The notes under the pieces: generated by a model
Told to the model about the DNA's origin: nothing
Databases searched by the model: none
What the model saw: the letters and a program-made list of their open reading frames with translations, nothing else
Shown here: one piece after another, positions 6,210 through 57,802 of the stretch
How the letters are laid out: each line of letters opens with the position of its first letter
Numbering within the stretch: the stretch's first letter is position 1
Position numbers and translations under genes: made by a program
Source of the DNA: Woeseia sp.
GTDB lineage: Bacteria > Pseudomonadota > Gammaproteobacteria > Steroidobacterales > Woeseiaceae
NCBI GenBank assembly: GCA_021773015.1
Contig: JAJFKW010000004.1
Coordinates: 434,001 to 498,000, forward strand
Direction: 5' to 3'
Length of the DNA: 64,000 bases

Positions 6210-7589
6210 CTAATTAGCGCGTCGCCAGGTTGTCCCGCTGGGACCGTCTTCGATTATGATTCCGGCAGATTGCAGTTCATCGCGCTTGGCATCCGCTATA
6301 GCAAAATCTTTCGCCGCTCGCGCTGCATTGCGTTCGTCAATCAATCGCCGAATATTGTCTGCTGACAAATCGCTGCCAGTATTGCCGCTAAACCAAACCT
6401 CCGCATCTCCTTGTGCAATGCCCATCAAAGCTGCGGAGGCGAGCAAGGTTGCAGCATGTGCCATTCGTTGGCCAGTCTCGTCCGTTTTGTTCAGTTGACG
6501 CACCAGGTTGAACAGCTCCGATAGCGCTTTGGGTGTATTGAGATCATCCTCCAGTGCCGCTAGCACCGCGCTCGCGGGTTCAGCAGATTCACGTACATCC
6601 GCAACAAGCTGAATATTGCGCAGCGCGCCATATATACGGTCCAACATCTTGCGCGAAGACTCAAGGAGATCATCAGACCAGTCCAACGGTTGCCGATAAT
6701 GCGCGCTAAGGAGCGCAAGACGAATGACTTCCCCGGGAATCGTCTTAACCAAATCGTGCACCAGCAATACATTGCCCAACGACTTTGACATTTTCGTGCT
6801 ATCCATGCTGAGAAAGCCATTGTGGAGCCAGTGGCGCGCGAATACTTCGCCACCGTGGGCACATGTACTCTGTGCCAATTCGTTTTCATGGTGAGGAAAC
6901 ACCAGGTCCTGACCACCAGCGTGAATATCGATCGTCCGGCCAAGATGTTTTTCAGACATCGCGGAGCATTCAATATGCCAGCCTGGCCGGCCCCTGCCCC
7001 ACGGCGACGTCCATCCAGGAAGTTCCGGCGTAGACGGCTTCCACAATACAAAATCTTGTGGTGCACGCTTGTAGGGTGCGACCTCCACGCGCGCACCAGC
7101 AATTAATTCACGCACATCGCGTTTGGATAATTGGCCATAGCGGTCGAATGCTGCGACATCGAAGAGCACGTGGCCGTCGGCGGCGTAGGCAAAACCATCG
7201 GCGACTAGCTTTTCGATCATCTCGATCATTTCGGCGATGTGTTCGGTTGCCCGCGGCTGAATATCTGGCGGCAACACACCGAGCGCACCCATGTCGTCGT
7301 TGTACGCTTTGATGAAACGAGCCGTGATTTCATCAATGGGCTTACCGGTTTCGACAGACGCCGCGTTTATCTTATCGTCGACGTCGGTAATATTGCGCGC
7401 AAAGATCACCTCATAACGCCGTCGCAGCAAACCTGCCAATACATCGAAAACAACGGCAGGCCGCGCATTGCCGATGTGGGCATAGTTGTAGACGGTCGGG
7501 CCACATAGATACATTGTGACCCGGCCGGCCTGTAATGGCTCAAAAACCACCTTACGGCGCTGCAGAGTATCGTGAAGATAAATCGTCAT
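6210..7589 (-). CDS. cysS: Cysteinyl-tRNA synthetase
   Basis: Class I aminoacyl-tRNA synthetase charging tRNA-Cys. The [16 protein letters not shown] region (Cys29 is a zinc ligand and HIGN at 38-41 is the HIGH signature) and KMSKSLGN (about 267-274) are intact, as are the other zinc-site segments HIECSAMS and HHENE. Length 459 equals E. coli CysS (461). It is the first gene of its operon, followed by sufE after 12 bp, and is divergent from hisI with a 148-bp shared upstream region. Confidence 0.97.
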
Positions 7590-56810: not shown

Positions 56811-57191
56811 CTATACACGGCGTTTTTTCGGCGGACGACAACCGTTATGAGGAATGGGTGTGACATCCTCAATGTTCTGAATACGGAAACCGAGAGCATT
56901 CAAAGCGCGCACGGCAGATTCTCTGCCGGGGCCTGGCCCACGAACTCGTACGTCCACGTTTTTGACACCAAATTCCTGTGCTGCTTTGCCCGCTTTTTCC
57001 GAAGCGACCTGAGCGGCAAATGGAGTCGACTTACGAGAACCACGGAAACCGCAGCCACCGGCAGTCGCCCATGAAAGCGCGTTACCTTGACGATCGGTGA
57101 TCGTGATAATCGTATTGTTAAAAGAAGCGTGTATGTGCGCAATTGCGTCAACTACGTGCTTCTTTACCTTTTTCTTTTTCGGTTCAGCCAA
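56811..57191 (-). CDS. rpsK: 30S ribosomal protein S11
   Basis: A 126-residue S11 with the core [29 protein letters not shown] and the ending [10 protein letters not shown]. The start is a TTG at 57189-57191 with an AGGAG 7 bp upstream, giving [11 protein letters not shown]; no in-frame ATG exists near. A TTG start on a ribosomal protein is unusual. It is preceded by the 117-bp duplicated leader and followed by rpsD. Confidence 0.95.
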
Positions 57192-57194
57192 GAT

Positions 57195-57428
57195 AGGCTC
57201 CTAAGTCTTTCATTTCGTTTGGCACGATGATCAAAACTGTCGTCACCGTGCGTTTCCTGCAAATTCTTCTCTGTCCGTTCGCGACCCGCAGTACATTATT
57301 ACTATCGCATCAGGATCCTATGTCTTTCATTTCGTTTAGCACGCTGATCAAAATTGTCGTCACCGTACATTTCTAGCAAATACTTCTACGTTCGTTCGAG
57401 ACCCGAAGTGCATTGCTGTTATCCAGTC
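57195..57428. repeat. 117-bp imperfect tandem duplication in the rpsM-rpsK gap
   Basis: Two imperfect direct copies lie head to tail, 57195-57311 and 57312-57428. Both contain ctttcatttcgttt, gatcaaaa-tgtcgtcacc and the rest in the same order, with mismatches throughout. The first (closest to rpsK) includes the AGGAG ribosome site of rpsK. In the minus direction, the second copy carries AGGATCCTGATG, an analogous ATG that stops after two codons. A gap here is normally under 50 bp. Confidence 0.85.
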
Positions 57429-57445
57429 CCGCTTCTGTGTGCCAC

Positions 57446-57802
57446 CTACCGCTTAATCGGCCGGCGCGGTCCTTTTCGTGTTCGCGCGTTGGTTCGTGTT
57501 CTTTGTCCCCGAACCGGTAGCCCGCGTCGGTGCCGGATACCGCGATAACAACCGAGATCCATCAATCGCTTGATGTTCATCGATATTTCGCGTCGCAGAT
57601 CGCCTTCGACTTCGAATTTAGCAACTGCTGATCGAAGATTAGCTACCTCCGGCTCTGCCAGATCTTTGACAACCGTTTCTGGTGCAACGCCGGCTTCACT
57701 ACAAATCTGCCGTGCGCGAGTTCGTCCAACACCGTAGATCGACGTCAATGCAATCACGACGTGCTTAGCCAACGGAATATTTATGCCTGATATACGTGCC
57801 AC
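57446..57802 (-). CDS. rpsM: 30S ribosomal protein S13
   Basis: The 118-residue protein (E. coli 118) starts [21 protein letters not shown] and ends [18 protein letters not shown]. It bridges the two subunits. It follows rpmJ by 17 bp and heads the alpha operon. Confidence 0.97.

Follow-up and report, generated by a model that had tools for sequence, protein, structure and literature searches.

In the window analyzed here, a 64,000-nucleotide stretch of a Woeseia genome, a minus-strand operon contains a gap of 254 bp between rpsM and rpsK (57192 to 57445) that is almost wholly made up of two 117-bp direct copies. Is this a leader of rpsK that was duplicated once, or a sequence with a wider role? 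The initial annotation had described the gap as two imperfect copies, and self-comparison with shuffled controls confirmed this. The copies (57195 to 57311 and 57312 to 57428, 117 nt each) align without gaps and with 23 mismatches, and the best ungapped self-match of the gap scores 73, whereas in 300 dinucleotide shuffles this score averaged 8.8 and never exceeded 14. An assembly duplicate is excluded by the identity of only 80%. The features of the region are given below in operon order.

57446 to 57802, minus strand: rpsM (S13), open reading frame
57312 to 57428, minus strand: copy A, 117-nt element on the rpsM side; the more diverged of the two (56% identity to the sister-genus element)
57375 to 57428, minus strand: 5' part of copy A, a relative of the 5' (P1) hairpin, ACTTCGGGTCTCGAA, from sequence comparison
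57339 to 57368, minus strand: 3' hairpin of copy A, GTACGGTGACGACAATTTTGATCAGCGTGC, fold z of -2.5
57313 to 57319, minus strand: AGGATCC in copy A, degenerate counterpart of AGGAGCC, read from the sequence
57195 to 57311, minus strand: copy B, adjoining rpsK; 117-nt element (61% identity to the sister-genus element)
57258 to 57311, minus strand: 5' part of copy B, P1, CGATAG...ACTGCGGGTCGCGAA, from sequence comparison
57222 to 57251, minus strand: 3' hairpin of copy B, GCACGGTGACGACAGTTTTGATCATCGTGC, fold z of -3.7
57196 to 57202, minus strand: AGGAGCC, presumed Shine-Dalgarno sequence of rpsK; the identical motif lies ahead of rpsK in sister-genus genomes
56811 to 57191, minus strand: rpsK (S11), open reading frame with a TTG start

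The duplication had been thought to include the translation-start region. The Shine-Dalgarno-like stretch was indeed copied, and AGGAGCC is present ahead of the rpsK TTG as described, as is AGGATCC at the corresponding place in the upstream copy. The start codon, however, lies outside the repeat and was not duplicated, since the copy ends at 57195 and the TTG begins at 57191, and since the two-codon ATG frame that had been assigned to the other copy (ATG-CGA-TAG, at about 57302 to 57310) falls within the first bases of the downstream copy. Divergence between the copies is uneven, with 5 of 55 sites differing in the 3' half and 18 of 62 in the 5' half (P = 0.0095). Where A and B differ, copy B carries the conserved form at 11 sites and copy A at 6, a difference that is not significant. 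A consensus scan of the gap found neither a promoter-like site nor a terminator-like site on the operon strand, and an internal promoter in the gap was rejected on that basis. Outside the gap, a perfect 15-nt inverted repeat links the rpsK and rpsM coding regions (56906 to 56920 and 57704 to 57718, 783 nt apart), possibly by chance.

Searches with the gap first matched sequences directly preceding rpsJ in relatives from other genera, and subsequently ones in the Woeseia genome itself, where the repeat unit is related to the tufA-rpsJ spacer. A covariance model, R1, was built from a 13-sequence alignment of rpsJ and rpsK spacers only. In the 4.84 Mb of the Woeseia genome it gave six strong matches, with the next match about 15 bits weaker. 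The six comprised the two rpsM-rpsK copies, the tufA-rpsJ spacer, the atpA-atpG spacer, which was found at an E value of 1e-6 and lay outside the training set, and two sites next to tuf genes at the ends of contig C5. Of these two, one is the tufB-tRNA-Trp spacer; the other, a truncated copy that immediately follows the second tuf gene, is most likely the tufA-rpsJ site cut by a contig break. The six matches therefore probably represent five copies at four junctions: tufA-rpsJ, tufB-tRNA-Trp-secE, rpsM-rpsK (two copies), and atpA-atpG. This copy number (about five copies, four sites) comes from covariance searches with a candidate filter, in which the model E values are rough and weak copies may be missed owing to the filter and the stricter settings used above 40 genomes.

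Plain DNA alignment within the genome gave the same relationships. Identity is 70% over 118 nt between the tuf and atpG spacers (E value of 6e-14), 67.5% over 114 nt between the rpsK and atpG spacers (E value of 2e-8), and 66% over 106 nt between the rpsK and tuf spacers (E value of 7e-8). Since the aligned lengths agree with the period of the repeat, the tandem unit is one element, and all strong matches to it are extragenic, in spacers. Because the element also occurs at tuf-rpsJ, tufB-tRNA, and ATP-synthase genes, it is a rare spacer element common to several operons that are expected to be heavily expressed rather than a one-off leader duplication. We are highly confident that the gap is a tandem pair of a two-hairpin intercistronic element of about 117 nt that is reused at four junctions. 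A recent neutral duplication without outside relatives is ruled out by the homologs at other loci and in other genera.

Several features of the neighboring spacers were also observed. The 3' flanks of tufA and tufB share 98% identity over 151 bp, and the assembly breaks there (loci L340/L363 and L142); given this identity, a tufA/tufB gene-conversion tract seems to pass the stop codon and traverse the element. The atpA-atpG spacer (L364, about 6980 to 7230) has a second hairpin upstream of the element, with AGAGCGCAGCGAAGCGAGCC in its loop region, and a similar motif occurs in the tufB spacers of genomes G016 and G020. The rpsJ-rplC spacer (L142, G000:C4:498001-503726) is 754 bp long here, with family quartiles of 465 to 604 bp, and includes a conserved block in which a repeated CGCAAATTGATCTTTAGTGC accompanies a TATAAT-like box of the operon strand. 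It seems that the S10 operon is divided downstream of rpsJ, rplC having a leader of its own.

The element consists of a 5' hairpin, GTGGARCGCGAY..GGTCGCGAA, and a 3' hairpin, GYRCGGTGACGACAGTTTTGATC.CCGTGC, followed by AAAC. This anatomy is clearest in G013 and G024, in which the 5' hairpin reads GTGGAGCGCGAT...GGTCGCGAA and the 3' hairpin is built around CGGTGACGACAGTTTTGATC, again followed by AAAC. The best-conserved part across copies at the four different junctions is GTGACGACAGTTTTGATC. The 3' part of most copies forms a hairpin, with fold z values of -2 to -6 in about half of them. It is strong in G024, at the rpsK site of G033, and in G017 (z of about -4 to -6) and weak or absent at the Woeseia atpG site, at the rpsJ site of G033, and in G021. 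When a whole copy or the whole gap was folded, its stability was no greater than that of shuffles. Compensating base changes had been proposed in the initial annotation as a check on function; in two alignments of the 3' hairpin, columnwise covariation exceeded that of slid controls but not that of shuffles. Both alignments were rigid, and because the register of the hairpin shifts between species, a rigid alignment is a poor test of covariation. In view of the variable hairpins and the covariation result, we limit the claim to a conserved sequence with hairpin potential and do not extend it to an RNA fold.

In several genera the 3' hairpin lies directly ahead of the Shine-Dalgarno sequences of rpsJ and rpsK, a location that would suit an autoregulatory leader in which S4, S10, L4, or another ribosomal protein binds the hairpin and blocks rpsK or rpsJ translation. 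Moreover, the window has no recognized alpha-operon S4 leader and its rpmJ-rpsM gap is only 17 bp, so a substitute site would be useful. We nevertheless regard such a leader as distinctly unlikely, because copies also precede atpG and tRNA-Trp, where no ribosomal protein feedback offers a simple explanation. A known Rfam leader was also rejected, since no ribosomal protein leader model gave a match, even at an E value of 10. The proposal that the duplicated leader is specific to rpsK, or is an S4 target, is not supported, given the same element at tufA-rpsJ, tufB-tRNA-Trp, and atpA-atpG in this genome and compensating base changes that do not exceed those of shuffled controls.

The family was sampled through about 100 genomes, mostly fragmented and most of them breaking at tuf. 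Its rpsM-rpsK gap has a median length of 64 bp and measures at least 60 bp in 32 of 61 clusters, the one studied here being the longest, and the rpsK-rpsD and rpsD-rpoA gaps stay at about 10 and 18 bp. The statement that the rpsM-rpsK gap is usually under 50 bp thus holds for most of the Gammaproteobacteria examined but not for this family. The element was found at tuf-rpsJ in the Woeseia genome (genus g1), in g3, in the sister genus g12, and in one g10 genome. At rpsM-rpsK it occurs in g1 and g12, in the latter as a single copy that is clear in G024, G033, and G041 and weak in G017 and G011. The tufB-tRNA-Trp element is present in g1 and g4, with weaker matches in g3 and g12; the g4 spacer, from G013, matched R1 at an E value of 6e-7 and was outside the training set. 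A second model, R2, extended by the sites newly found with R1, was run on 296 genomes of the order and gave no match beyond the family. Viral contigs encoding S11 yielded nothing. Matches under about 23 bits in G011, G053, G043, G012, and the Woeseia genome itself (C1:2357514) were inspected and taken as chance, and a weak tufB-tRNA-Trp match in G021 was kept as position consistent. The tRNA-Trp-secE spacer of G011 (L352:242-263, minus strand) holds a short match to the 3' hairpin that runs the opposite way, GGAGACGACAGTTTTCATCTCC, and may be an inverted copy.

The sister-genus counterpart of the rpsM-rpsK element shares both hairpins and AGGAGCC with it. Copy B is 61% identical to the G024 element (63.6% by blastn) and copy A 56%, whereas identity at the fourfold-degenerate sites of ten genes from this cluster is 41%, with 26% expected at saturation. 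The region ahead of rpsK therefore looks constrained, and the view that the duplication is old was upheld. In a tree of 17 concatenated proteins, the Woeseia genome adjoins the group of g12, g3, g2, g4, g7, and g5. On the evidence of the g12 counterpart, the fourfold-site comparison, and this tree, the element is old at the rpsM-rpsK junction and seems constrained there, and among the genomes sampled the tandem duplication is confined to this lineage. Absence of the duplication from close relatives had been named as a sign of neutrality; the duplication is indeed missing there, but the element itself is present. Copying of the rpsJ leader to rpsK, confined to this species, was rejected as the sole account, the sister genus having its own single-copy element with the rpsK-type AGGAGCC.

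Many relatives lack the element at the same junctions. The tuf-rpsJ spacer of G053 (g10, L143) contains it, and that of the close relative G023 (L200) has an unrelated hairpin instead, which suggests gain, loss, or replacement of spacer elements without obvious cost. This difference fits a serious rival reading, in which the element is a nonautonomous REP/ERIC-like repeat that inserts or duplicates in operon spacers without host function, and the tandem pair is a neutral duplication. Elsewhere in the family, the tuf-rpsJ, tufB-tRNA-Trp, rpsM-rpsK, and atpA-atpG spacers hold different hairpin repeats, some of them tandem, and significant direct repeats occur in 10 of about 123 such spacers, counting the one in this window. 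There is a REP-like array in the atpA-atpG spacer of G003, whose tuf and atpG spacers have a common repeat, and tandem units are found in the tufB-tRNA-Trp spacers of G012, G017, G023, G053, and G097. Furthermore, a REP-type hairpin replaces the P1 hairpin in G017 and G041, and we take the P1 hairpin itself to resemble REP heads (GTGG/GTAG plus a palindrome). Yet there are only about five copies, at four sites in 4.84 Mb, all of them in translation or ATP-synthase operons; the strict 5' (P1) pattern occurs twice in 107 genomes, at two element sites; and the orthologous rpsM-rpsK sequence is kept above the fourfold-site level. On balance we consider a repeat of this kind unlikely. That different lineages put their own repeats at the same junctions speaks for a role of the junction itself (or for biased insertion there) more than for a sequence-specific ribosomal protein site. 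Separately, two of the tandem tufB-tRNA-Trp spacers have weak relatives of the 3' hairpin in each unit, namely the three units of about 57 nt in G012 (L358) and the two units of about 85 nt with a REP-type hairpin in G017 (L343).

The explanation that we prefer, held tentatively and at slightly less than an even chance, is that the element acts as an mRNA hairpin that sets unequal expression of neighboring genes by protection or processing. The tuf, ribosomal protein, and ATP-synthase operons are expected to be very highly expressed. Judging from gene order, the element would be transcribed inside polycistronic mRNA, where its hairpins may mark a boundary, protecting the 3' end of the upstream message, acting as a processing point, or both. 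Upstream tuf, rpsM, and atpA and downstream rpsJ or tRNA, rpsK, and atpG would thereby be expressed at different levels, and the rpsK-side copy would later have been duplicated in tandem in this lineage. Intercistronic hairpins act in this way in malEFG and other operons of E. coli, where differential decay around them has been documented (PMC5927463). The protection or processing reading is favored by the out-of-training matches, the plain DNA alignments, the conservation at orthologous sites, the better-kept 3' half, the hairpins, the other hairpin repeats at the same junctions elsewhere in the family, and the scan that found no promoter-like or operon-strand terminator-like site. It is weakened by covariation not above that of shuffles, the ordinary whole-copy folds, the element-free relatives, and the G053/G023 pair.

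The conservation of GTGACGACAGTTTTGATC, the best-kept stretch in copies at four junctions, could also point to a regulon, in which one RNA-binding protein or small RNA recognizes the CGACAGTTTT hairpin and coregulates translation and ATP-synthase genes. This is very unlikely in our view, there being no candidate regulator, no nearby start codon at tufB-tRNA-Trp, and one tuf site that tufA/tufB gene conversion (98% over 151 bp) may simply have carried along. We give equally little credence to its broader form, a family-restricted regulon RNA through which a shared trans-acting factor would tune tuf/rpsJ, rpsK-rpsD-rpoA, and ATP synthase, the tandem copies changing the effect on rpsK. If it were true, energy and translation capacity would be coupled in these bacteria. 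Should the element instead set the ratio of neighboring genes, as in the protection or processing reading, it would offer a compact natural system in which to study how bacteria adjust stoichiometry within their most highly expressed operons. Ribosomal protein and ATP-synthase operons are textbook cases of conserved, compact gene order, and several of them here carry the same spacer element, kept at the same junctions across genera and doubled in one species. Even for a selfish repeat, restriction to four such junctions would be unusual and testable.

Among known systems, the ERIC/IRU sequences of enterobacteria share the intercistronic location and similar size of the element. They are about 120 bp long and dispersed in many copies, and to our knowledge their sequence is unrelated to that described here. 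The REP, BIME, and REPIN sequences of E. coli and Pseudomonas are short palindromic spacer units that form mRNA hairpins and can occur in tandem clusters, and the element resembles them in being extragenic and in having palindromic hairpins, of a strength that varies by copy. They differ in their high copy number per genome and their link to a RAYT transposase (PMC3116915), whereas the element has two nonidentical hairpins in fixed order and about five copies at four sites, a number on the basis of which an abundant REP was rejected. The alpha-operon S4 leader (Alpha_RBS) and other ribosomal protein leaders likewise place structured RNA near the start codons of ribosomal protein genes (PMC7247131). 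Unlike Alpha_RBS, the element precedes rpsK rather than rpsM, has no Rfam match, and is found before atpG and tRNA-Trp as well, so that it is not confined to the ribosomal protein operons of a ligand. The protective hairpins between malE and malF, for which an effect on decay has been demonstrated (PMC5927463), are similar in lying between genes of one operon. Here, too, the hairpin stands between codirectional genes, presumably cotranscribed given their order, and has no U-tract terminator or promoter signature; the corresponding effect on decay would be an extension from that case. What sets the element apart from the malE-malF hairpins is that one recognizable sequence is reused in four operons.
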